This document shows positions 5,985 to 18,307 of a stretch of DNA of 55,791 bases, one piece after another. Within the stretch, counting starts at the first letter, position 1. Every line of letters starts with the position of its first letter. The position numbers were made by a program, and so were the translations under genes. Source of the stretch: Pelagibius sp. (GTDB lineage Bacteria; Pseudomonadota; Alphaproteobacteria; Kiloniellales; Kiloniellaceae). The notes under the pieces were generated by a model. The model had not been told where the DNA came from. It searched no databases and worked only from the letters and a program-made list of their open reading frames with translations. Where the stretch lies: NCBI RefSeq assembly GCF_028289705.1, contig NZ_JANQOI010000126.1, positions 1-55,791 of the forward strand, given 5' to 3'.

Positions 5985-6192
5985 GGCGCCCTTATAGCCG
6001 CGCTGCCGCCCGTCACCAAGGAATGCTCTCTGACAGATCCATGACGGCCCGCTATCTGTATGAAGAAGCCATCATAAGAGTATGGTTTTGTGGATAGAAA
6101 TCGACTCTCTTCAACCAATTTCTCGGTTGTTGACTTGCGGACGGCGGGCGTCCGCCCCATAGTCATTTCAGAGCTGAGACGGAGGATTGCCG
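5985..6192. promoter_or_regulatory. divergent intergenic region with 7-bp hairpin before fdhD
   Basis: This 208-bp gap must hold promoters for the leftward binding protein and for the rightward fdhD. A perfect inverted repeat GCGGACG-GCGGG-CGTCCGC lies at 6137-6155, about 38 bases before the fdhD start, and would form a hairpin in the leader. TTGACT at about 6130-6135 could be a -35 box, but no good -10 follows at the right distance. No known riboswitch is recognised. Confidence 0.35.
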
Positions 6193-7161
6193 ATGGCCGG
6201 CAAGGCCGCAGAGGATGGAAGCAAGGGGGCCGTGAAGACCCTGCGCAAGGGCCGCGCCAAGGCCAGCGATCCGGCCCTGCTGGAAGACTTCGACCTGCGC
6301 CCCGATCCGGCCGACCCACGGCTCACCGAGCGCATCGCCGGCGTCGATCAGGACGGCACGGCGGTGGAGACGGCGGTGGTGGTGGAGCGGCCGCTTACCC
6401 TGTTCCTCAACGGGCAGGAGATCGTCACCATGATGACCATCGGCGATTATCCCGACTATCTGGCCCTCGGCTACCTGCTCAATCAGAACATGCTGCAGCC
6501 CGACGACGTGATCGAGGGCATCGACGTCGACGAGGAACTGGACGTGGTGGTGGTGCGCACCGCCCGCGAGACGGACTACGAAGAGAAACTGAAGAAAAAG
6601 GTGCGCACCTCCGGCTGCGCCCAGGGCACCGTCTTCGGCGACCTGATGGAGAAGTTCGAAACCGTCGCCCTGCCCAAGGACGCGGTGCTGAAGACCTCCT
6701 GGCTGGTGGCGCTGTCGAAAAAGATCAATGCCGTGCCCAGCCTCTATCTGGAGGCCGGTGCGATCCACGGCTGCGTGCTCTGCCAGGGCGACCGGCCGCT
6801 GGTCTATATGGAAGACGTCGGCCGCCACAACGCCGTCGACAAGATCGCCGGCTACATGCTGCGCCACGGCATCGCCCCGGAGGACAAGCTGTTCTACACC
6901 ACCGGGCGCCTGACCTCGGAGATGGTGATCAAGACGGTGCAGATGGGGATTCCGATCCTGGTTTCCCGCTCCGGCTTCACCGCCTGGGGGGTGGACCTGG
7001 CACGCCAGGCGGGGCTCACCCTGGTGGGCCGCGCCAAGGGCAAGCGCTTCGTCGCCCTGGCGGGGGAGGAGCGTCTGGTCTTCGATCACGACCCGGCGAG
7101 CCTGGAAGACGAAGACCCGCGCCACCAGCGCAAGTCCGGCCGCGCGGACGACGCGGCATGA
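6193..7161 (+). CDS. fdhD: formate dehydrogenase accessory sulfurtransferase FdhD
   Basis: FdhD transfers sulfur from a cysteine desulfurase to the molybdenum (bis-MGD) cofactor and is needed for active formate dehydrogenase. ATG 6193 is preferred over TTG 6187 because GGAGG at 6181-6185 is well spaced from it. The 322-residue protein shows the family core: ETAVVVERPLTLFLNGQE, DYPDYLALGYLLNQ, the sulfur-carrier loop TSGCAQGT, MEDVGRHNAVDKIAGY, FYTTGRLTSEMV and SRSGFTAWGVDLA. The carrier loop has only one cysteine (C142) where Escherichia coli FdhD has a CxxC pair, a variation seen in some longer FdhD forms. A charged, lysine/arginine-rich N-terminal extension precedes the domain. mobA follows 17 bases downstream, so the two probably form one cofactor-maturation operon. 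Confidence 0.93.
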   Translation: MAGKAAEDGSKGAVKTLRKGRAKASDPALLEDFDLRPDPADPRLTERIAGVDQDGTAVETAVVVERPLTLFLNGQEIVTMMTIGDYPDYLALGYLLNQNMLQPDDVIEGIDVDEELDVVVVRTARETDYEEKLKKKVRTSGCAQGTVFGDLMEKFETVALPKDAVLKTSWLVALSKKINAVPSLYLEAGAIHGCVLCQGDRPLVYMEDVGRHNAVDKIAGYMLRHGIAPEDKLFYTTGRLTSEMVIKTVQMGIPILVSRSGFTAWGVDLARQAGLTLVGRAKGKRFVALAGEERLVFDHDPASLEDEDPRHQRKSGRADDAA

Positions 7162-7178
7162 GGGCCTGAACGTATCCC

Positions 7179-7808
7179 ATGGGATTTGAGAAGGACGAAG
7201 TGGCCGGAGTGCTGCTGGCCGGCGGGCTGTCGCGGCGCATGGGCGGCGGCGACAAGTGCCTGCGCGATCTGGGCGGCCGTCCGATCCTGGCGCGCATCGT
7301 CGAGCGGGCGGCGCCCCAGGTGGGCGCCCTGGTGCTGAACGCCAACGGCGATCCCACGCGCTTTGACGGGTTTGGCCTGCCGGTGGCTGCCGATGTGGTG
7401 GAGGGCTACGCCGGGCCGCTGGCGGGCATCCTCACCGGGCTGGACTGGGCGGCAGAGAACGCGCCGGCCGCCCAGTGGCTCGCCAGCTTCGCCTGCGATG
7501 CGCCCTTCCTGCCGGAAGACCTGGTAGCCCGCATGATGACGATGGTGGCAGCGGAGGATGCGGACCTCGCCTGCGCCGTCACCCACGGCCGGACCCACCC
7601 GGTCTTCGGCCTCTGGCGCCTAGACCTCCGCGGGGACCTGCGCCGGGCCATGCTTGAAGAGGAGATGCGCAAGGTCGACCGCTGGACCGCCCGCCACAGG
7701 CTGGTGGAAGTGGATTTCCCGGACCTGGAAACCCCCGCCGGCCCCCTCGATCCCTTCTTCAACACCAACCGCCCGGAAGACCTGGAAGAGGCGGCACGCT
7801 TCCTCTGA
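7179..7808 (+). CDS. mobA: molybdenum cofactor guanylyltransferase MobA
   Basis: MobA links GMP to molybdopterin to make the guanine dinucleotide cofactor of DMSO-reductase-family enzymes such as AioA and formate dehydrogenase. The 209-residue protein has the nucleotidyltransferase signature GVLLAGGLSRRMGGGDK, then GPLAGILTGLDWA and FACDAPFLPEDL (metal-binding Asp), followed by HPVFGLW and FFNTNRPEDLEEA at the end, all as expected for MobA. The start is either ATG 7179, with a weak ribosome site, or GTG 7200, which follows AAGGACGAA and would begin right at the nucleotide-binding strand. It follows fdhD closely. The arsenite oxidase genes 8 kb downstream need this cofactor. Confidence 0.93.
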   Translation: MGFEKDEVAGVLLAGGLSRRMGGGDKCLRDLGGRPILARIVERAAPQVGALVLNANGDPTRFDGFGLPVAADVVEGYAGPLAGILTGLDWAAENAPAAQWLASFACDAPFLPEDLVARMMTMVAAEDADLACAVTHGRTHPVFGLWRLDLRGDLRRAMLEEEMRKVDRWTARHRLVEVDFPDLETPAGPLDPFFNTNRPEDLEEAARFL

Positions 7809-7931
7809 GGGCGCGCCGGCCGGGCAAGCCTGCGCTCGGATCCGCGAAACCCGCTCTGGACTCGCCTTGGGGTTGACCTCGGCGGGCGTTCGGTGTGACC
7901 TCCTGGGCGTCGACCGGCAGGGAGGACGACT

Positions 7932-10900
7932 TTGGAAAACATCATACTTGGGGTCGTGATTTGCCTGGCCGTCATCTTTGCGGTGGTGGCGTTCGGTCTC
8001 TACATCGACAAGGCGGAATCCAAGACCCAGGACAATAAGGAGGGCAGCGACGGCACTGCCCTCAGCGGCACCGCCGCCGGCATCTATGCGATCGCCGGGC
8101 GTCTCTCGGACTTCTACAGCGCGACCTCGCATCCCGACAACCTGGCCGAAGGCAGCGAAGACTTCAAAGAGGCGGTACGGCTGCTCTCCGGGCCGGAGTT
8201 CTCCGTCGACGACCTGATCAGCTTCGCCACCGGCGACAACGCCATCATTTCCTGCTTTGCCCTGGAGGCTCTGCGGCAGCGTGAGGACGGCGGCGAGGCC
8301 ATTTCGGAAGTACTGGCCTGTGTCGGCACCATCGCGCCCTGGCCGCAGTACTTTGCGCTGCGCTTCCTGGAGGCGAAATGCGATCCCGGGCAGGCGGTCA
8401 TCGGCCCGGTGCTGTTCCGGACAACCGACTATCTGAACTACCGCCTCTCCAGGGGATTCCTCATCCAGTTCATCAAACGGCGTCTGGCCGACGGCGAGCG
8501 CGCGGCGTTCAGCGCCGAAGGCGGCGCGCCCAACGACGACGCGATCAAGGAGCTGAAGAGGTTCTTGAGCGCTCTCGACGCGGAGGTCGGGGGCCCCTTG
8601 ATCGAGGCGCTGGAAGACTGGGACTCCAGGCGGGTCGATGACGATCTGCTGCGGTCTGCCGGGCGTCTCTGGTCCGAGCGCGATTCGCAGCTCGCCGAGG
8701 CCATCATCGAGCATGCCCCGCTGGCCGCTGCGGTCGGCCAGCTTGAAAGCGCGCTCACTGCCAAGCATCCCCAGTCCTTCCTCGTGGTCGGCGAGCGCGG
8801 CGTCGGCAAGACCGCGCTGCTGAGCCGCCTCGCCAAACGCCTCTACGAGGACGGCTGGCGGGTCTTCGTGGCCGGCCACAACGATCTGGTTGCCGGCCAG
8901 AGCTACATCGGCGAGTTCGAGGAACAGCTCAAAGCGATCCTGGCGCAGCTCGGCAGTGGCCGCCGGGTCGTCTGGATGATCCCGGACTTCCACAGCCTGG
9001 CCTTTGCGGGGCGCCACCGCTACAGCCCCGTGGGGGCGCTGGACGCCTTGCTTCCCATGGTCGAACAGGGGCTCATCCGGGTGGTCGGCGAGATCGATCC
9101 TCGCGCCTTCGAGCGGCTGCTCCTGCAGCAGCCCAGAACCGTGACGGCGCTTTCGGCGCTGCGTCTGGAGCCCTTGCCGAAGGAGGAGACATTGGCCCTC
9201 GCGGGCCAGTGGCAGGCGGTCTCGACGGCCAAGAGGGACAGCACCTTCCTCCACCAGGCCTGGGACCTCTGCCAGCAGTACCTCAGCGACCGCGCCGCCC
9301 CCGGCAACCTACTGGGACTCCTCGAGTCGACCCACCGGCGGCTGGATACGCTGGCCAGCGGGACCCGACCCGAGATCGGCCTGGACGATCTCATCGTGAC
9401 TCTCGCGGCCCAGTCGGGCCTGCCGCTCGAGGTGCTCGACCAGCGCCGAGATCTGGACTTGGATGCCCTGAGAACCCGTTTGTCTCAGCGGGTCATCGGG
9501 CAGGCGGAAGCCGTCGACTGCTTGGTCGAGCGGGTCGCCATGCTGAAGGCGGGGGTCAACGACCTGACCCGGCCGGTCGGCGTGTTCCTCTTTGCCGGGC
9601 CGACCGGAACCGGCAAGACCGAACTTGCCAAGGCTCTGGCCGAGTGGCTGTTCGGCGATCCACAGCGGCTGATCCGGCTCGACATGAGCGAGCTGCAGAC
9701 TCCGGAGAGCACCGACCGGCTCCTGGGCCAGCCCGAAGCCGGAGAGGGCGATTCCCTGGCCGATCAGATTCGCCGTCAGCCTTTTTCCGTCGTCCTGCTG
9801 GACGAGTTCGAGAAAGCCCATCCCAAGGCCTGGGATCTCTTTCTTCAGGTCTTCGACGATGCCCGGATCACCGACCGGCGCGGCCAGACCGTCGACTTCC
9901 GCCACACCATCATCGTCCTGACATCGAACCTCGGGGCCACCATCCCCACCGGCGTCGCCATCGGCTTCGGCAACAAGAACCAGGCCTTCGATCCGCGGGA
10001 GGTCCGGCGCTCGGTGGACAAGGTCTTCCGCAAGGAGTTCATCAACCGCCTGGACCGCGTGGTCGTCTTTCGCCCGCTTACGCGCAGCCTGATGCGGGAG
10101 ATCCTGCAGAAGGAGCTCTTGGACGCCTTTCAGCGGCGCGGCCTGAAGAACCGCACCTGGGCGGTGGAGTGGGACGAGAGCGCGATCGAGTTCCTGCTGG
10201 ACAAGGGGTTCACACCGGATCTCGGGGCAAGGCCGCTGCGCCGGGCCATTGAACGCTACCTGCTCTCGCCGCTGGCCCTGACCATCGTGCGCCGCCAGGT
10301 GCCCGACAGCGATCAGTTCCTGTTCATCTCGGCCAGCGAGGACCGCCTGACCACGGAGTTCGTCGACCCCAACGCGGAAGCGCCGGTCGATGCCAAGGAC
10401 GCCGAAGCCGCTGCACAGACCGACGTCGAGGGCGAAAGGACGCCGCGCAGCATCCTTGCGCAGCCCCAGGGTACCCGGGAGGAGCTGGCAGCTCTGAAGC
10501 GGCACTACGAAGCCTTGCTGGAGACCGTCGAGAACGCCCAATGGCGTGAGCTGAAGCAACTGGCGCTCGATGAAATGAACGCGCCGGACTTCTGGTCGTC
10601 TCCGCAGCGCTTCGGAACCCTGAGCCTCACCGAATACATCGACCGCATCACATCGGGGCTCGATCGCGCCGGGTCGCTGCTGCGCCGCCTGGAGAGCGGC
10701 GCCGGAGGCAAGGCAGGGAACATCCCGGCAAACCTGATCGCCGTCCTTGCCGAGAACCTGCATCTGCTGCAGGCGGCCTGCGGCGATGTTCTGGAGGGCC
10801 GGCCCTACGATGCCTTCCTGCTTGTCGAGGCGAGGCTCGATGGGACGCAGGATGCTGATGAGGTTCGCGCCTTCGCCGAGAGGGTTTCGGGCATGTACGA

Positions 10901-11309
10901 GTCCTGGGGGGAGAAGCGGCGCATGAGGGTCACGCGGCTGAACGGCGCGCAGCCTGACCCGGAGAGCAGCTATCGGCGGCTCTATGCCGTGTCGGGCTAT
11001 GGGGCCTTTGGCCTTCTGGTCCCGGAATCCGGGCTCCATGTTCAGGAACGTCCCAGCGGCAAGCCGAAGCAGTTCGACCGGGATACGGTGCACGTCCTGG
11101 TGACCGCGCAGGGAGACGGCGAACCGCCGGCGGACAAAAAGCAGCTCGCGCGCGAGGCGGAGGCGGCGATCGCCGAGGCCAATTCCGACAACTCCGCCAT
11201 CGTCCGCCGCTATCGCACGGCGCCGTCGCCGCTGGTGCGCGATACGGTGAAGGACTGGCGGTCGGGGCGCCTGGATTTCGTCCTGGACGGCAACTTCGAT
11301 CTCTTCTGA
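7932..11309 (+). CDS. membrane-anchored ClpB-like double AAA+ protein fused to a GGQ-less RF2-like domain
   Basis: The 1125-residue protein starts at TTG 7932, supported by GGAGG six bases before it. Residues 4-25 form one membrane helix and about 50-270 an alpha-helical region of unknown type. The first AAA+ module has Walker A GERGVGKT (about 287) and the ClpB-like loop SYIGEFEEQL, but a degenerate Walker B (IPDFH instead of IDELH). The second module is ClpB-like and intact: GPTGTGKT (about 555), VVLLDEFEKAHPKAWDLF, LTSNLG, EFINRLD and a small domain ending near 800. From about 847 on the chain follows release factor RF2: MNAPDFWSSP, PYDAFLLVEARLDG, MYESWGEKR, GYGAFGLLVPESGLH, IVRRYR, and FVLDGNFDLF at the end. 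The GGQ domain and the SPF codon-reading motif are absent. It may couple an unfoldase to ribosomes at the membrane; no function is established. Confidence 0.85.
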   Translation: MENIILGVVICLAVIFAVVAFGLYIDKAESKTQDNKEGSDGTALSGTAAGIYAIAGRLSDFYSATSHPDNLAEGSEDFKEAVRLLSGPEFSVDDLISFATGDNAIISCFALEALRQREDGGEAISEVLACVGTIAPWPQYFALRFLEAKCDPGQAVIGPVLFRTTDYLNYRLSRGFLIQFIKRRLADGERAAFSAEGGAPNDDAIKELKRFLSALDAEVGGPLIEALEDWDSRRVDDDLLRSAGRLWSERDSQLAEAIIEHAPLAAAVGQLESALTAKHPQSFLVVGERGVGKTALLSRLAKRLYEDGWRVFVAGHNDLVAGQSYIGEFEEQLKAILAQLGSGRRVVWMIPDFHSLAFAGRHRYSPVGALDALLPMVEQGLIRVVGEIDPRAFERLLLQQPRTVTALSALRLEPLPKEETLALAGQWQAVSTAKRDSTFLHQAWDLCQQYLSDRAAPGNLLGLLESTHRRLDTLASGTRPEIGLDDLIVTLAAQSGLPLEVLDQRRDLDLDALRTRLSQRVIGQAEAVDCLVERVAMLKAGVNDLTRPVGVFLFAGPTGTGKTELAKALAEWLFGDPQRLIRLDMSELQTPESTDRLLGQPEAGEGDSLADQIRRQPFSVVLLDEFEKAHPKAWDLFLQVFDDARITDRRGQTVDFRHTIIVLTSNLGATIPTGVAIGFGNKNQAFDPREVRRSVDKVFRKEFINRLDRVVVFRPLTRSLMREILQKELLDAFQRRGLKNRTWAVEWDESAIEFLLDKGFTPDLGARPLRRAIERYLLSPLALTIVRRQVPDSDQFLFISASEDRLTTEFVDPNAEAPVDAKDAEAAAQTDVEGERTPRSILAQPQGTREELAALKRHYEALLETVENAQWRELKQLALDEMNAPDFWSSPQRFGTLSLTEYIDRITSGLDRAGSLLRRLESGAGGKAGNIPANLIAVLAENLHLLQAACGDVLEGRPYDAFLLVEARLDGTQDADEVRAFAERVSGMYESWGEKRRMRVTRLNGAQPDPESSYRRLYAVSGYGAFGLLVPESGLHVQERPSGKPKQFDRDTVHVLVTAQGDGEPPADKKQLAREAEAAIAEANSDNSAIVRRYRTAPSPLVRDTVKDWRSGRLDFVLDGNFDLF

Positions 11310-11439
11310 GCCTGGGCCTTTCGGACCCACCGGCGGACGGGCCGTCAATCGCCGCATGGCGGCGAGAGGCCGAAAGGTGTAAGCTCTCCTGCAAATAAGA
11401 GAAAGCGCCCCATAGAGGGAGCGTTATCGGGAGGGAACG

Positions 11440-12354
11440 ATGCCGAGGCTGGTGGCCGCTGGTGCAGCGCCATCGCATAGGAGTGCTGTCCGCTCATATG
11501 ATCGCCGGCGTTTTCTGTCGGGTCTGGCCGGCGCCGGCTCTCTGACGCTGTTGCCAGGGCGCGCGTGGGCGGAGGCGGACGAGGTCCGTTTCGGCCTGAC
11601 GCCGGTCTTTCTCAGTTCCGATCTCGAACTCCTGGCGCAGCTTCGCGACTACCTCTCCACCGCCCTCGAACGGCCGGTGAGCCTGGTCATGCGGCGCACC
11701 TATCAGGAGATCACAGCCCTGCTGCTCTCCGGCCAGCTCGACGCGGCCTGGATCTGCGGCTACCCCTTCATCCAGTATCGAGCGCGGTTGTCGCTTTTGG
11801 CCGTGCCGGTGTGGCGGGGAAAGCCGCTCTACCAGTCCTACCTGATCGTCGACCAGGGCCGCACGGCTGCGGACATTCTCGACCTGCGCGGCGACATCCA
11901 TGCCTATTCGGACCCGGACAGCAATTCCGGCTACCTGGTAACCCAGGCGGCGCTCGCCGAAGAGGGCGAGGAGTCGGTGGCCTTCTTCCGCAAGAGCTTT
12001 TTCACCTACTCCCACCGCAACGTGGTCCGGGCCGTCGCCTCTGGCCTGGCGGAAAGCGGCAGCGTCGACGGCTATGTCTGGGAGGTGATGTCTGAAATCG
12101 AGCCGGCGCTCACCGGCAGGACCCGGGTGCTGCGCAAGTCGGAGTGGCTCGGCTTCCCGCCGGTCGCCTGCGCCAAGGGCCTGGCGGAAACCCCGGTCGC
12201 GGCGGCCATCAGCGCGGCTCTGACCACCATGGGCGACGACCCGCTGGGCCGTGCCGCCCTGGACATGCTGCGCCTGGACGGTTTCGCGCCCGGCGCGCCG
12301 GCGCTTTTCGACGGCATCGCCCAGAAATACGATCTGGTTCGGAGCCTGGGATGA
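11440..12354 (+). CDS. aioX: arsenite-sensing periplasmic binding protein AioX (PhnD-like)
   Basis: AioX is the periplasmic As(III) sensor that signals to the AioS kinase. The ATG at 11440 follows GGGAGGGAA. A twin-arginine-type signal (DRRRFLSGLAGAGS, about residues 21-34) precedes a PhnD/phosphonate-binding-type fold of normal length (304 residues), starting EVRFGLTPVFLSSD. The segment DAAWICGYPF carries C106, which corresponds to the cysteine reported as essential for arsenite binding in Agrobacterium AioX. The stop overlaps the aioS start (ATGA), showing translational coupling. Without the aioSR-aioBA context this would be called only a PhnD-like phosphonate-binding protein; the neighbours make AioX nearly certain. 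Confidence 0.9.
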   Translation: MPRLVAAGAAPSHRSAVRSYDRRRFLSGLAGAGSLTLLPGRAWAEADEVRFGLTPVFLSSDLELLAQLRDYLSTALERPVSLVMRRTYQEITALLLSGQLDAAWICGYPFIQYRARLSLLAVPVWRGKPLYQSYLIVDQGRTAADILDLRGDIHAYSDPDSNSGYLVTQAALAEEGEESVAFFRKSFFTYSHRNVVRAVASGLAESGSVDGYVWEVMSEIEPALTGRTRVLRKSEWLGFPPVACAKGLAETPVAAAISAALTTMGDDPLGRAALDMLRLDGFAPGAPALFDGIAQKYDLVRSLG

Positions 12355-13811
12355 GCCGTCTGCTTCGTCGTCTCCGGGCCTGGCCGATCACCGTCAAGGT
12401 GCCCCTCATGGTGGTGGCGCTGATGGTCGCGGTCAGTGCCGTCCTGTCCAATCAGGTGCTGCAGCGACTCGCGGAAACCCAACAGCGCCACCTGGAGGAA
12501 CTGACCGGCGCCTATCTCGACGGCCTCTCCGCCTCGGTGGTTCCCCATGTGCTGCGGGAGGACATCTGGGAGATCTTCGATCAGCTCGACCGCACCCGCC
12601 ACGGCTATGTCGGGGTACGCGCGGTCCACACGCTGGTCGCCTCGGTGCAGCACCGCGTCCTCGCCGCATCGGACCCGCGGCTCTATCCGACACAGCAGGC
12701 CGTTCCCGCGGCGCTCGCCGGGCGCTTTCAGGACGGTGTCGCGCTGGTGCAGGACGAAACCGCGGGGCGCGCCTTCATCCGCCGCGCGCTCTCTTACCAG
12801 GACCGCCCCCTCGGCTGGATCTATGCGGAAATCGACATTCAGAGCCAGTTGGCCGAGCGCCGGGAGGTGCTGCTGGCACTGGTGCTGACCAACGCGGCGC
12901 TGACCCTGCTCTTCGCCGGCTGCGGCTATCTGGTGGTGCGCCGCATGATCCGCCCCATCGATACCCTGGCCGAGCATCTCCACCGCGGCCGGGACGGTCG
13001 CATAGAGGCCATCCCGCAGTCCAAGTTCGGCGCGCGCCACGGCGAATTCGGGCGCCTGTTCAGGCGCTACAACGCCCTGGTGCGGGCCCTCGACCAGAAG
13101 GAAGCACTGGCGGCGCGTCTGGCGGAAGAGGAGAAGCTGGCCAGCCTCGGACGCCTCGCCTCCGGCATGGCGCACGAGATCAACAATCCGCTGGGCGGCA
13201 TGTTCACGGCCATCGACACCATCGAACGCCACGACGACGATCCGGCGGTGCGCCGCTCTTCCCTGGGCCTCCTCAAACGCGGGCTGATCGGCATCCGCGA
13301 TGTCGTGCGGGCGACGCTCGTTACCTACAAGAGCGGTGCGGCGGACCGCGCCCTGCGCCCCTCCGATCTCGACGATCTGCGCGTTCTGGTCCGTCAGGAG
13401 ACCGCCCGCCGGGGCCTCACGCTCGGCTGGTACAATGCACTGCCTCCCGACCTCGAGCTTCCCGCCGGTCCGATCCGCCAGGCGGCTCTGAACCTCCTGC
13501 TGAATGCCTGCGCGGCCTCGCCAAACAACGGTCCGGTCGAATTCTGCGCGGAGGTCGCCGAGGACGCCCTGGTCATTGTCGTCGCCGACCGGGGCCCGGG
13601 TCTGCCTGAAGACGTGGCCGCGATCCTGCAGAGTGACGGCCGGGACGGCGCACCGCCCGCGGAAGGGCGGGGGCTCGGGGCCTGGATGGTCAGCCATTTG
13701 GTGTTCGGCCTCGATGGTCAGGTGCGGGCCTCTCCGCGAGAGCGCGGCGGCACGCGTATCGAGATCAGGATTCCGCTGGCCGCGAAAGGGGTACTGCGCG
13801 ATGTTGCCTGA
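12351..13811 (+). CDS. aioS: sensor histidine kinase AioS
   Basis: The 486-residue kinase starts at ATG 12351, overlapping the aioX stop by four bases, with GGAG ahead. Membrane helices at about 13-32 and 173-196 bracket a periplasmic sensor part expected to meet AioX. After a HAMP-like segment (RRMIRPIDTLAEHL) comes the phosphoacceptor box MAHEINNPLGG with H275, then the N-box LNLLLNACAA and the G1 box ADRGPGLPED. It would phosphorylate AioR when AioX binds arsenite. The gene overlaps aioR by 11 bases. Longer upstream frames exist but run through aioX and have no ribosome site. Confidence 0.92.
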   Translation: MSRLLRRLRAWPITVKVPLMVVALMVAVSAVLSNQVLQRLAETQQRHLEELTGAYLDGLSASVVPHVLREDIWEIFDQLDRTRHGYVGVRAVHTLVASVQHRVLAASDPRLYPTQQAVPAALAGRFQDGVALVQDETAGRAFIRRALSYQDRPLGWIYAEIDIQSQLAERREVLLALVLTNAALTLLFAGCGYLVVRRMIRPIDTLAEHLHRGRDGRIEAIPQSKFGARHGEFGRLFRRYNALVRALDQKEALAARLAEEEKLASLGRLASGMAHEINNPLGGMFTAIDTIERHDDDPAVRRSSLGLLKRGLIGIRDVVRATLVTYKSGAADRALRPSDLDDLRVLVRQETARRGLTLGWYNALPPDLELPAGPIRQAALNLLLNACAASPNNGPVEFCAEVAEDALVIVVADRGPGLPEDVAAILQSDGRDGAPPAEGRGLGAWMVSHLVFGLDGQVRASPRERGGTRIEIRIPLAAKGVLRDVA

Positions 13812-15141
13812 GGGCTGCAAAATCGGTCTCGTCGAAGACGATCCCGTGATGGGGGAATCGCTGCTGCAGCGCCTCACCCTGGAGGGCTGCGCCGTGGACT
13901 GGTGGACCACGGGCCGCGAGGCGATGAGCGGCCTGCGGCGCTTCGATCCGGACCTCGTCGTTTGCGACATCCGCCTGCCGGACATGGCGGGCGGCGCGCT
14001 CTTCGAGGAAGCCGTGCGGGGCGTGAATGCGCCACCCTTCCTCTTCATCACCGCCTACGGCGAGATCGACCAGGCAGTCGGTCTGATGCGCGCCGGGGCC
14101 GGCGACTATCTCACCAAGCCCTTTGCCATGGACGACTTCCTGGATCGCGTGAAGGCTCTGCTGAGCCGCAAGGACCCGCTTGGAGTCGAAGACCATAGTC
14201 TGGGCGGCAGCAAGGCGATGCGCGCGGTCGAGCACCTCTTGCGCCGGGTGGCCGGGCTTGAAAGCGCCTTGCTGATCACCGGCGAGACCGGCAGCGGTAA
14301 GGAGGTCTGCGCCCGCTTCGTGCATCAGATTTCCCCGGCGGGGACTGAACCTTTCGTGGCGGTCAACTGCGCGGCAATCCCCGACAGTCTTCTGGAGAGC
14401 GAACTCTTCGGCCATGAGAAGGGGGCCTTCACCGGGGCCCATGCGCGCCACCTCGGCTATGCCGAGCGGGCGAAGGGCGGCGTTCTCTTCCTCGACGAGG
14501 TGGCCGACATGCCGCTGCCCCTGCAGGCCAAGCTGCTGCGGTTGCTGGAGGACCGCGCTTTCCACCGCATCGGCGGGGAACGGCCGGTGCCCTTCGACGC
14601 CCGCCTGATCTGCGCCACCAATCGCAACCTGAATGAGGCTGTTCGCCAGGGCAGCTTCCGTGAGGATCTGCACTTCCGCATCAACGTGATCCCGGTCGAG
14701 GTGCCGCCGCTGCGCGAACGCCGGCAAGACGTCGCGCCCCTGCTGCACCGTTTCGCGGCCGAGTTCGCCGCGCTGATGGTCCGCGATGTGAGCGGGGTCA
14801 GCGCCCTGGCCGAGGAGGCGGCCCTGGCCCACGACTGGCCCGGTAACGTGCGCGAGCTGCGCAACCGGGTGGAGCGCGCGGTCGCCCTGGCCCGCGGGGC
14901 CTGGCTGATGCCCGGCGACCTCTTCCCGGAGGTGGGCCGGCCCGAAGACGGACAAGCGGGCGACATCGCGACCCTGTCGGAGGTGCGCGACGCGGCGGAG
15001 CGCCGGCAGATCCTCCGGGCGCTCCAGGCGACCGACGGCCAGGTGGCGAAGGCAGCGGACGCACTGGGCGTCTCCCGGACGACGCTTTGGGAGAAGATGC
15101 GGCGCCTGCAGGTCAACGCGAAGGAAGCAGCTTCCTCCTGA
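13801..15141 (+). CDS. aioR: sigma-54-dependent response regulator AioR
   Basis: The 446-residue NtrC-family regulator starts at ATG 13801, after AAAGGGG, within the last codons of aioS. The receiver domain has the acidic pair EDD at 12-14, phospho-acceptor D56 in VVCDIRLPD and the conserved lysine in LTKPF. The AAA+ domain has Walker A GETGSGKE (161-168), the sigma-54 contact loop GAFTGA (208-213), LFLDEVADMP, and the arginine region FREDLHFRINV. A Fis-type helix-turn-helix closes the protein (AADALGVSRTTLWEKM). It is predicted to bind upstream of aioB and to open the sigma-54 promoter found there at 15256-15271. Confidence 0.94.
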   Translation: MLPEGCKIGLVEDDPVMGESLLQRLTLEGCAVDWWTTGREAMSGLRRFDPDLVVCDIRLPDMAGGALFEEAVRGVNAPPFLFITAYGEIDQAVGLMRAGAGDYLTKPFAMDDFLDRVKALLSRKDPLGVEDHSLGGSKAMRAVEHLLRRVAGLESALLITGETGSGKEVCARFVHQISPAGTEPFVAVNCAAIPDSLLESELFGHEKGAFTGAHARHLGYAERAKGGVLFLDEVADMPLPLQAKLLRLLEDRAFHRIGGERPVPFDARLICATNRNLNEAVRQGSFREDLHFRINVIPVEVPPLRERRQDVAPLLHRFAAEFAALMVRDVSGVSALAEEAALAHDWPGNVRELRNRVERAVALARGAWLMPGDLFPEVGRPEDGQAGDIATLSEVRDAAERRQILRALQATDGQVAKAADALGVSRTTLWEKMRRLQVNAKEAASS

Positions 15142-15145
15142 CGGC

Positions 15146-15161
15146 GTTCGGATTTCCGAAC
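15146..15161 (+). promoter_or_regulatory. palindromic upstream activating site, probable AioR operator
   Basis: GTTCGGATTTCCGAAC is a perfect 7-2-7 palindrome lying five bases after the aioR stop and about 95-110 bases before the -24 element of aioB, the usual distance for an NtrC-type enhancer site. Half-site-like copies follow: GGTTCGG near 15165 and TTTCGGAAC near 15185. Position and symmetry are seen directly; binding by AioR is inferred. Confidence 0.6.
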
Positions 15162-15255
15162 GTAGGTTCGGCCGCGAGTCAGGATTTCGGAACGGTTGCG
15201 CGCGGTGCTGTCCTTCGACAGGCTGATTTCCTGCGCATTTCTCCCGCAGAACCTT

Positions 15256-15271
15256 TGGCATGCAGTTTGCT
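15256..15271 (+). promoter_or_regulatory. sigma-54 (-24/-12) promoter of aioBA
   Basis: TGGCATGCAGTTTGCT matches the RpoN consensus TGGCAC-N5-TTGCW, with the GG and GC dinucleotides separated by exactly ten bases. Transcription would begin near 15282, giving a short leader before the aioB start at 15310. A sigma-54 regulator gene (aioR) immediately upstream supports the call. Confidence 0.85.
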
Positions 15272-15309
15272 CCCTACTGGGCACAAACAGAGTCCAGGGG
15301 AGGGAATCA

Positions 15310-15831
15310 ATGCCCAAGTGCGATCGCCTCGTCGACGTCGGTCGGCGCCAGTTCTTGCGGGGAGGGGCCGTGGCCGCGGCCGGTGCTGCGGCTGCGAGCG
15401 TTGCGCCCTCGGCGCCGGCAGCGGCCCGGGCCAGGGTGGACTATCCCTCGAACCGCTTGGCCAACGTCAGCGAGTTGACGACGAATGAGCCGTTCGACAT
15501 CAGCTATCCGGATGCCGACTCGCCGGGTGTGCTCATCAAGCTGGGCCAGCGGGTGCCCGGCGGCGCGGGTCCGGACGGCGACATCGTCGCCTATTCGGTG
15601 CTCTGTCCGCACAAGGGCTACCAGCTCGTCTATCACGGCGCCGACAAGACCCTGAACTGCCCCGGCCACTACTCGCGCTTCGATGCCGAGATGGAGGGCC
15701 AGCAGATCTTCGGCATGGCCAACCAGAGCCTGCCGAAGTTCGATCTGCGCGTGGACGCCAACGGCGACATCTTCGCCGAGGGCGTCGACGAGCTGATCTA
15801 CGGGCGCACCAGCAACGTGCTGCAGGGATAG
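15310..15831 (+). CDS. aioB: arsenite oxidase small (Rieske) subunit AioB
   Basis: AioB carries the Rieske [2Fe-2S] cluster that passes electrons from AioA to a cytochrome or azurin-type acceptor. The start at ATG 15310, after AGGGGAGGGA, gives 173 residues, the normal length. A twin-arginine signal (GRRQFLRGG, residues 11-19) exports the folded heterodimer. The cluster ligands are C99 and H101 in CPHKG and C117 and H120 in CPGH. The residues that form the disulfide in Alcaligenes-type AioB are not cysteines here (Tyr after CPHKG, Gly in CPGH), as in alphaproteobacterial enzymes such as that of strain NT-26. aioA follows after ten bases. Confidence 0.95.
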   Translation: MPKCDRLVDVGRRQFLRGGAVAAAGAAAASVAPSAPAAARARVDYPSNRLANVSELTTNEPFDISYPDADSPGVLIKLGQRVPGGAGPDGDIVAYSVLCPHKGYQLVYHGADKTLNCPGHYSRFDAEMEGQQIFGMANQSLPKFDLRVDANGDIFAEGVDELIYGRTSNVLQG

Positions 15832-15841
15832 GGAGGAAGCC

Positions 15842-18307
15842 ATGACCTACAAACGCGGTGTCGACCAGCTCCCGATCCCGCCGAAGGACGCCAAGGTCCA
15901 GAACGTGACCTGCGACTTCTGCATCGTCGGCTGCGGCTACAAGGCCTATAGCTGGGACCTCAACACACAGGGCGGCACGGGCGCCGGCGACAACGCCTTC
16001 GGTGTCGACCTCTCGCAGCAGCAGGACCCGGAGTCCGGGGCCTGGTACCAGCCCTCCATGTACAACATCGTCGAACAGGACGGCCGCCCGGTGCATCTGG
16101 TGATCAAGCCGGACAAGGACTGCGTGGTGAACGCCGGCCTCAACTCGGTGCGCGGCGGGCGCCTCGGCGAAACCCGCTACTCCGAGCAGATGGGCACCAT
16201 GACCGACCGCCTGACCCATCCGCTGGTCTGGCGCTATTCCCAGCACATGCCGACATCCTGGGACGACGCCCTTTCGCTGGTCGCCGACGTGACCCGGCGG
16301 GTGATCGAGGAATGGGGCGAGGACGGCGTCATCGTCTCGGCCTTCGACCACGGCGGCGCGGCCGGCGGCTATGAGAACACCTGGGGCACCGGAAAGCTCT
16401 ACTTCGAGAGCATGAAGGTGAAGAACATCCGCATCCATAACCGCCCGGCCTACAACTCCGAGGTCCACGCGACCCGCGACATGGGCATGGGCGAGTTGAA
16501 CAACTCCTACGAGGACGCGGAGCTGGCGGACACCATCTTCTGCCTTGGCGCCAACTCCCTGGAGAACCAGACCAACTACTTCCTGGCCCACTGGGTGCCC
16601 AACATGCGCGGCACCTCCCAGGCCAAGAAGGAGCAGATGCTGCCGGGCGAGGAGCACGCGCCCTGCAAGGTGATCATCGTCGACCCGCGGCGCACGGTGA
16701 CCGCCAACGTCTGCGAAATCGAGGCGGGCAAGGAGAACTTCCTGCACCTCGCCGTCAATCCGGGCACGGACCTGGTGCTGTTGAACGCCCTGCTGACCGA
16801 GGTGGTCGACAAGGGTTGGCATGCCGAGGACTTCATCGCCCAAAACACCAGCGGCTTCGAGACGGCGCTGGCCGCCAACCGGATCTCGGTGTCCGATGCG
16901 GCGCAGATCACCGGGCTGTCGGCGGCGGACATCCGCAAGGCGGCCGAGTGGATCGCCAAGCCCAAGGCCGGCGGCAAGCGCCGCCGCAGCATGCTTTGCT
17001 ACGAGAAGGGTCTGATCTGGGGCAACGACAACTACCGTACCAATGCCGCCATGGCCAATCTCTGCTTTGCCACCCACAACGTGGGCCGGGAAGGGACAGG
17101 CTGCGTGCGCCTCGGCGGCCACCAGGAAGGCTACGTGCGTCCCAACGAGGGCCACGTCGGCCGGCCCGCGGCCTATGTCGACCAGCTTCTCATCAACGGC
17201 GAGGGCGGCATTCACCACATCTGGGCCACCGACCACTTCAAGTCGACCTTGAACGCCGAGGAGTTCCGCCGCGTCTACCGGCGGCGCACCAACATCGTCA
17301 AGGAGGCGATGGAGGCGATTCCCTACGGCGACCGGGAAGCCCAGCTCGACTCCATCATCAACGCCATCCGGCGCGGCGGCCTCTTCGCCGTCGACGTGGA
17401 CATCCTGCCGACGCCCATCGGCGAGGCCTGCCACGTGGTGCTGCCGGCGGCCACTGCCGGCGAGATGAACCTCACCTCCATGAACGGCGAGCGGCGCCTG
17501 CGCCTCACCGAGAAGTACATGGACCCGCCGGGCGAGGCCCTCCCGGACTGCCTGATCGCAGCGCGTCTGGCGAACCACATGGAGAGGTCCTTCCGCGCCG
17601 CCGGCAACGCCGCCTATGCCGATCAGTTCAAGGGCTACGACTGGCAGACCGAAGAAGACGCATTCATGGACGGCTACCACAAGCACGCCGGGGGCGGGGA
17701 GTTCGTCACCTACGACCGCCTGCGGGCCATGGGCACCAACGGCGTGCAAGAGCCCTGCGTCGGTTACGAGAACGGCAAGCTGGTGGGCACCCAGCGGCTC
17801 TATACCGACGGCAAGTTCGGCGCCGGTGACGGCCGGGCCCTGTTCCAGGCGTCGCAATGGCGCGGGATCCAGGCCGCCGGGCGGGAGGCGCAACGCGATC
17901 GCTATCGCTTCCTGATCAACAACGGGCGCAAGAACATGATCTGGCAGAACGCCTTCTACGACGTTCGCACGCCCTTCGTGAAGGAGCGCTTTCCGGCGCC
18001 GCCCATCGAAATGAACCCGCAGGACATGGCCGAGCTCGGCCTTGCCGCCGGCGATCTTGTCGAGATCACCAACGACGTCGGCTCGACCCAGGCAATGGTC
18101 TATCCCATTGCCACGGCGCGCCGCGGGGAGTGCTTCATGCTGTTCTGCTCGCCCCTCGGCCAGGTCGGCAACGTGATCGGCGAGGGCACCAACGAGCTGA
18201 TCATCCCCAACTACAAGAACGTCTGGGCCGACATCCGTAAGATCGGTCGGGCGCCCCAGGCCGAAGGCATCAGCTTCAAGGCCCTGGAGTACCCGCAGGA
18301 CATCTAG
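15842..18307 (+). CDS. aioA: arsenite oxidase large (molybdopterin) subunit AioA
   Basis: AioA oxidises arsenite to arsenate in the periplasm at a bis-MGD molybdenum site; it is exported with AioB through the latter's Tat signal, having none itself. The ATG at 15842 follows GGGAGGAAGCC. The 821-residue length is typical. The [3Fe-4S] motif is C24-x2-C27-x3-C31 (CDFCIVGC), with S102 in NSVRGG where other family members have a fourth cysteine. The four arsenite-pocket residues known from the Alcaligenes faecalis structure (His195, Glu203, Arg419, His423) correspond to H199 and E207 in the HNRPAYNSE segment and R423 and H427 in CVRLGGH. This is therefore an AioA and not a related molybdenum oxidoreductase. 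Confidence 0.97.
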   Translation: MTYKRGVDQLPIPPKDAKVQNVTCDFCIVGCGYKAYSWDLNTQGGTGAGDNAFGVDLSQQQDPESGAWYQPSMYNIVEQDGRPVHLVIKPDKDCVVNAGLNSVRGGRLGETRYSEQMGTMTDRLTHPLVWRYSQHMPTSWDDALSLVADVTRRVIEEWGEDGVIVSAFDHGGAAGGYENTWGTGKLYFESMKVKNIRIHNRPAYNSEVHATRDMGMGELNNSYEDAELADTIFCLGANSLENQTNYFLAHWVPNMRGTSQAKKEQMLPGEEHAPCKVIIVDPRRTVTANVCEIEAGKENFLHLAVNPGTDLVLLNALLTEVVDKGWHAEDFIAQNTSGFETALAANRISVSDAAQITGLSAADIRKAAEWIAKPKAGGKRRRSMLCYEKGLIWGNDNYRTNAAMANLCFATHNVGREGTGCVRLGGHQEGYVRPNEGHVGRPAAYVDQLLINGEGGIHHIWATDHFKSTLNAEEFRRVYRRRTNIVKEAMEAIPYGDREAQLDSIINAIRRGGLFAVDVDILPTPIGEACHVVLPAATAGEMNLTSMNGERRLRLTEKYMDPPGEALPDCLIAARLANHMERSFRAAGNAAYADQFKGYDWQTEEDAFMDGYHKHAGGGEFVTYDRLRAMGTNGVQEPCVGYENGKLVGTQRLYTDGKFGAGDGRALFQASQWRGIQAAGREAQRDRYRFLINNGRKNMIWQNAFYDVRTPFVKERFPAPPIEMNPQDMAELGLAAGDLVEITNDVGSTQAMVYPIATARRGECFMLFCSPLGQVGNVIGEGTNELIIPNYKNVWADIRKIGRAPQAEGISFKALEYPQDI

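Follow-up and report, generated by a model that had tools for sequence, protein, structure and literature searches.

Textbooks assign Clp unfoldases and release factors to separate processes, and what a bacterium might do with both in a single conserved protein is the question raised by a gene in a 55,791-nucleotide stretch of DNA from Pelagibius sp. (contig NZ_JANQOI010000126.1, positions 1 to 55,791; hereafter the window). Here, we report that the single chain encoded by this gene begins with a membrane helix and a helical domain, continues with a ClpA-style pair of AAA+ domains (D1 and D2) and ends in a module derived from release factor 2 (RF2), and that this arrangement, though rare, is conserved. 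No fusion of Clp and RF2 was described among the matches listed in a literature search whose scope left many subscription papers outside. The accessible passages of a 2019 survey of release factors contain no word starting with 'clp', and those dealing with AAA+ ATPases concern Cdc48 (PMC6514570). The parts are of known kinds and, as far as could be seen, their combination is new.

The RF2-derived module

The initial annotation had likened the last ~280 residues of the protein to RF2, and the similarity proved to lie far above chance. The Pfam family PCRF (PF03462) scored 24.8 bits for the C-terminal part alone (gathering cut-off 24) and 21.2 bits, under that cut-off, in the full-length window protein; three distant full-length relatives gave 29.3, 25.1 and 24.4 bits, and the PCRF match had E ≤ 0.01 in all 13 rows of the module alignment. 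NCBIfam prfB matched with E 3.4e-6 and TIGR00020 (RF2) with 26.3 bits, short of its 370-bit threshold. When a profile of the family was compared with PDB, RF2 or RF1 accounted for 39 of the 43 among the matches listed, and RF2 (best E 6.9e-14) came ahead of RF1 (6.5e-7). For reference, 26 release-factor loci were read and 13 retained as RF2, while the other 13, whose chosen frame lacked SPF or RSYV, were dropped (some were RF1, some read in the wrong frame). Profile–profile comparison with the 13 RF2s scored 102, against 23.1 for the best of 100 column shuffles and 14.2 for the reversed profile. Two RF2-length frames with E about 1e-16, from a search in the class of another genome carrying a copy (G572), are further evidence of homology. 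Chance resemblance to RF2 was rejected by the PDB profile, PCRF, the shuffle controls and the predicted fold.

The likeness is unevenly spread. By segment, the profile–profile probability was 98.3 for the domain-2 part, 60.9 for the tail and 12.1 for the domain-1 part (23 columns around DFW), so that the assignment of domain 1 rests more on predicted fold than on sequence. An AlphaFold model of the module, followed by structure comparison, matches RF2 with the domain 1 and domain 2/4 body kept. The RF2 domain 1/2 fold foreseen in the initial annotation was thereby recovered, and the PCRF signal that it placed above background was borne out by Pfam and by hhalign, used in place of HHpred.

Residues 959-1052 of the window protein align to RF2 105-194 and residues 1090-1124 to RF2 301-335 (numbering of the RF2 in L009); between them 106 RF2 residues, GGQ included, correspond to 37 in the window protein, in line with the ~110 residues bearing the GGQ domain that had been proposed to be missing. 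The replacement of SPF extends to the family as a whole, as neither GGQ nor SPF was found in the module of any of the 13 rows (the L065 row is cut short). According to the accessible part of the survey (PMC6514570), bacterial release factors carry the release domain as an insertion within the domain for codon recognition. Its excision can therefore leave a body that stands on its own, as suggested by the model.

To quantify what is kept, positions conserved in at least 12 of the 13 RF2s and aligned were counted, and called kept when at least 75% of family rows agreed; the segment names used (alpha-5 tip, alpha-5 core, SPF/RRHTSF loop and so on) are those which we take to apply to RF2. The family keeps 3 of 21 such positions in domain 1; in the alpha-5 core 5 of 10 are kept, in the unit that follows this core 4 of 14, and in the tail 10 of 24. 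A further 48 conserved RF2 positions were unaligned, 31 of these in domain 3; the alignment also pairs 15 positions within domain 3 (2 of them kept), whose homology is not relied upon. Judged from these alignments, the scaffold of RF2 is retained and codon reading appears to be gone. GGQ triplets do occur outside the module in 6 of 12 fusion rows, within the small domain of D2 (D2-small) in L049, L061, L062, L063 and L065 and in the N domain of L036. These are a coincidence of letters which a plain motif scan would misread.

The motor and the N-terminal region

That a double AAA+ module precedes the release-factor part is confirmed by matches to AAA_2 (154.6 bits, cut-off 27, E 3.1e-45) and ClpB_D2-small (56.9 bits, cut-off 21.9, E 2.2e-15). 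Scored over the whole protein, TIGR03346 (ClpB) reached 321 bits and TIGR02639 (ClpA) 313 bits, short of their thresholds of 1232 and 993 bits. For ClpA the best stretch spans D1 and D2, and for ClpB and ClpC it covers D2; because the ClpA match runs through both rings, the layout is regarded as ClpA-like with a different N-terminal part.

Motifs were placed by alignment with the genome's own ClpB, the ClpA row being left out because it was a shadow frame, and the AAA+ motif names are presumably correct for the D1 and D2 positions to which we assign them. D1 carries the Walker A motif GERGVGKT (residues 287-294) and an aromatic pore loop, GQSYIGE; both the Walker A motif and the aromatic residue (Tyr/Phe) are kept in 12 of 12 rows. 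The Asp of the D1 Walker B motif is replaced by Pro, Gln or His across rows, and the next acidic residue is retained. In D2, with Walker A GPTGTGKT (556-563) and Walker B LLDEFEK, the Walker A, Walker B, sensor 1, Arg finger and sensor 2 elements are intact in every row. D2 probably serves as the engine while D1 provides the grip, and it is possible that the protein is a working unfoldase. ClpP-dependent Clp unfoldases have a conserved docking loop with the motif (I/L/V)GF/L; a candidate for such a loop reads IGF in the window protein and MGF, PGF or PAF in other rows.

The membrane helix claimed at the N-terminus has a counterpart throughout the family: all 12 rows, the window's included, show a hydrophobic segment (mean Kyte-Doolittle 1.89-3.12) among their first 140 residues. 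In some rows the longest frame opens at an upstream start codon, with this segment behind it. The start of the window protein, LENIILG, is common to it and its 97% relative in the same-genus genome G006 (L037). The helical N domain that follows the helix (residues 48-265) matched no Pfam family in the window protein. Across the 12 members seven Pfam families match one member each (best KfrA_N, 4.4e-5), and the sole match in PDB, with a designed repeat protein, was weak (E 0.14). A phylum sample of 398 genomes yielded this domain in at least three, always inside a fusion frame; none of the candidates scored in these genomes was a free N domain without the release-factor module. Three features go beyond the initial annotation: this helical domain, the altered Walker B motif of D1 and the absence of the D2 pore loop. 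Domain boundaries (Table 1) were set by eye on the family alignment of 12 rows, window included.

Table 1. Position and basis of each part of the Clp-RF2 fusion gene in the window.
Feature	Position	Strand	Basis or remark
Clp-RF2 fusion gene	7932..11309	+	1125 codons, TTG start; Pfam/NCBIfam/PDB profile matches
Putative ribosome-binding site GGGAGGA	7920..7926	+	five bases before TTG at 7932
N-terminal transmembrane helix, residues 4-22	7941..7997	+	mean Kyte-Doolittle 3.12 (predicted)
Helical N domain, residues 48-265, without clear family	8073..8726	+	boundaries by eye on alignment
AAA+ D1, residues 266-505	8727..9446	+	Walker A, pore loop kept; Walker B IPD vs IDE
AAA+ D2 and D2-small, residues 506-812	9447..10367	+	ATPase motifs intact, GYVG pore loop missing
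Variable Ala/Glu-rich linker, residues 813-838	10368..10445	+	dN/dS
RF2 domain-1-like helical bundle with DFW, residues 839-957	10446..10802	+	model; sequence alone weak
RF2 domain-2-like core, residues 958-1060	10803..11111	+	PCRF match; alignment to 1052, remainder by eye
Short linker, about residues 1061-1084	11112..11183	+	replaces RF2 ~195-300 (L009 numbering); boundaries by eye
RF2 C-terminal tail, residues 1085-1125	11184..11306	+	VRRYR...PLVRD...WRSGRLD.VL.GNFDL

Distribution, selection and gene neighbourhoods

The release-factor module was found in 13 genomes (G000, G006, G037, G023, G411, G572, G799, G1007, G1023, G1024, G1025, G1027 and G1028). In 12 of them, the window's included, the fusion is visible in one open frame, and 11 of these frames are complete; the frame of G1027 is cut at its C-terminal end, while the G1024 contig starts only just ahead of the module, leaving the fusion beyond view. 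One copy, that of G799, sits in a single-contig genome, and the one-frame fusion in 12 genomes, G799 among them, ruled out an artefact of assembly or frameshift. The searches recovered the module in 4 of 61 genomes of the order, 2 of 385 of the class and 3 of 398 of the phylum (own genome included in the last two), and in 8 of 233 genomes of the family of G572 (plus one frame of 385 amino acids that is probably RF2), 1 of 203 of the class of G572 and 1 of 39 of the family of G411. The counts from the wide searches are lower bounds, since in most genomes at most 6 candidates were scored in the searches of the class and the phylum, 10 in the family of G572, 12 in the class of G572 and 7 in the phylum search for the N domain.

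Across five pairs of relatives the ratio of non-synonymous to synonymous substitution rates (dN/dS) was 0.13-0.33 for the domain-1 part of the module, 0.10-0.29 for the domain-2 part and 0-0.26 for the tail; for the Ala/Glu-rich linker four pairs gave 0.26-0.80 and the fifth was saturated. In the G572-G1028 pair the linker was no looser than domain 1. The module is under purifying selection. Trees of the AAA+, release-factor and N-domain parts all place the window copy with those of G006, G037 and G023 in an order-level group of four (supports 100/100, 99/97 and 94/97, respectively), and the domains have probably stayed together over a long period. The placement of G1007 differs, inside the group of genus g412 in the release-factor tree (80/96, modest) and outside it in the AAA+ tree; long branches lead to G411, G799 and G1007. 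When plasmids were searched with the window protein, 2,283 records matched, none over more than 80% of the query, and among the 15 matches listed it was the AAA+ part that was covered; the module of two relatives had no match in the plasmids.

The genome also encodes an RF2 (525 bits), a second class-I release factor with the RF1-type PxT motif, ClpB and another Clp-type D1-D2 protein, so that the fusion replaces none of these. An ordinary clpB lies ~5 kb downstream of the RF1-type gene on the same strand (L080 137-8918, minus strand). Such proximity is a possible route to Clp-release-factor fusions, though the fused module is of RF2 type.

In the window the gene follows mobA (7179-7808) and precedes an aioX-like sensor gene (11440-12354), with gaps of 123 and 130 bases, and further downstream come a histidine kinase, an NtrC-type regulator and the small and large subunits of arsenite oxidase. 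It is thereby located mid-way in an arsenite oxidase island (6187-18307, plus strand) that holds AioB, AioA, the AioX-like sensor, the kinase and the NtrC-type regulator beside fdhD and mobA. The 97% copy in G006 is likewise flanked by mobA and aioX look-alikes. The copy of G023 has SCO1 and NicO-like genes as neighbours, and since annotated neighbours in other lineages differ, the link to arsenite oxidation is treated as incidental.

A MerR regulator lies ~0.1-2.1 kb from the module in four of the eight g412 genomes (L049, 5747-6496; L061, L062, L066), and the L049 copy contains a detected TipAS domain, a kind of domain that senses ribosome-targeting thiopeptides. In G1028 the regulator is encoded elsewhere, G1022 has it but lacks the fusion, and neither G1026 nor G1027 yielded one; with linkage in only half of the group, the association is weak. 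Near the G411 copy are DUF5682, a MoxR-like AAA protein, a SWIM zinc-finger protein and DUF4132 (L048 3-6815, minus strand), and near that of G1007 a protein joining LanC-like and HopA1 family domains (L064 6476-8806, plus strand). The window also carries an extracellular contractile injection system cluster (28538-55033, minus strand), of which 10 proteins were scanned. Matches were to DUF6519, Baseplate_J, Phage_base_V, CIS_tube, two eCIS_core proteins (one of 2598 amino acids) and a WHD-AAA ATPase; three of the 10 had no match.

Possible functions and known systems

We tentatively prefer, at less than even confidence, to see the protein as a membrane-held Clp motor with a non-catalytic docking arm derived from RF2, whose likeliest client is the translation machinery at the membrane. 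The choice of client follows from the module, which is RF2-derived and keeps the domain-1 and 2/4 body; in RF2 this body fills the A site and the factor-binding region of the ribosome. The membrane helix would keep the ring on the inner side of the membrane, D2 would burn ATP and the aromatic pore loop of D1 would grip the substrate. The RF2-derived arms, on their flexible linkers, would bring the motor to its client, which could be stalled or damaged ribosomes or a ribosome-bound factor at the membrane, and they would dock without codon reading and without peptide release. Since the pore loop of D2 is lost, modest remodelling would be expected rather than deep threading. That the arm docks on ribosomes we infer from its descent and modelled fold, and binding of the A site is possible.

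Several observations weigh against such a ribosome-docking motor. Alignment with the ClpB of this genome shows that all 12 rows lack the GYVG-type pore loop of D2, a deletion that makes unfolding uncertain. Sequence by itself gives the domain-1 part little support, and designed helical bundles were matched too. In RF2 the SPF loop and the alpha-5 tip contact mRNA and rRNA; of the conserved positions in these two segments the family keeps 2 of 17 (SPF/RRHTSF loop) and 1 of 10 (tip), and this loss of codon-reading contacts argues against an RF2-like pose in the A site, which a ring of several arms could in any case reach only from a flexible linker. Finally, neighbours vary across lineages and none points to translation.

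We consider it nearly as likely as ribosome docking that the module now serves the Clp ring in protein binding or assembly and is unconnected with the ribosome, for example by recruiting one membrane protein. Besides the loss of the codon-reading elements and the shifting neighbourhoods, from arsenite oxidase genes here to SCO1 and NicO-like genes in G023, such an arm is favoured by a conserved signature of the module's own, WRSGRLD.VL.GDFDL, the WR.GR part of which is missing from RF2s; the modelled domain 1 and 2/4 body, however, exceeds the needs of a simple binding module. Binding of a particular RNA is improbable by comparison. It has a close precedent in chloroplast PrfB3, an RF2 paralogue that lost both SPF and GGQ and protects the petB 3' untranslated region, yet which is not described as a motor fusion in the accessible part of the report (PMC5897788). 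Net charge may also be cited in its favour, at -6 to +1 for the module (13 rows) against -15 to -27 for whole RF2s (n=13), the stretches compared being unlike.

The remaining explanations carry far less weight. A role in defence, as a ClpB-like effector or sensor such as DolB, seems very unlikely: the PADLOC model for DolB does score 103 bits on residues 509-668, but this match falls in the D2 region of AAA+ common to Clp proteins. In Dodola the partner gene dolA adjoins dolB; no recognised defence partner was present among the scanned neighbours (no DolA model was searched by name), and a narrow pattern scan of viral contigs found no relative. Hardly more credible is a role as a decoy, in which the protein would compete with RF2 and change how stop codons are terminated, for despite the RF2 fold of the model neither SPF, the alpha-5 tip nor the His-Thr pair is conserved. 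Least likely of all is a functionless passenger left by accidental fusion, which the disappearance of the GGQ domain might suggest and which purifying selection, and a fusion visible in 12 genomes of three lineages, speak against.

Whichever client it serves, the fusion offers a ready-made test of whether bacteria own a motor that acts directly on ribosomes, and a natural experiment on the role of the RF2 body without its active site. With PrfB it shares the domain 1 and 2/4 fold, DFW, MY.W, G.A...E.GLH and the C-terminal tail, and it differs in lacking the GGQ domain and SPF and in being joined to an AAA+ motor. PrfH, by comparison, retains its release domain and has no Clp motor. ClpA and ClpB (Hsp100) are resembled in the D1-D2 pair with the catalytic motifs of D2, whereas the membrane helix, the unrelated N domain, the altered Walker B of D1 and the RF2 module behind the motor set the fusion apart, as do the lost pore loop of D2 and the lack of the middle domain of ClpB. 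PrfB3 is comparable as an RF2 relative without SPF and GGQ, and differs as a plant protein for which the accessible part of the report describes no motor fusion (PMC5897788). It is conceivable, if doubtful, that a motor with its own ribosome-docking arm, engaging stalled or damaged ribosomes or their chains at the membrane, makes the fusion a covalent bacterial counterpart of Vms1-Cdc48. There, too, a release-factor-like protein works with an AAA+ ATPase, as told in the accessible passages of the survey (PMC6514570), but the two are separate proteins, the release-factor fold is the unrelated archaeo-eukaryotic one and Cdc48 is no Clp protein.

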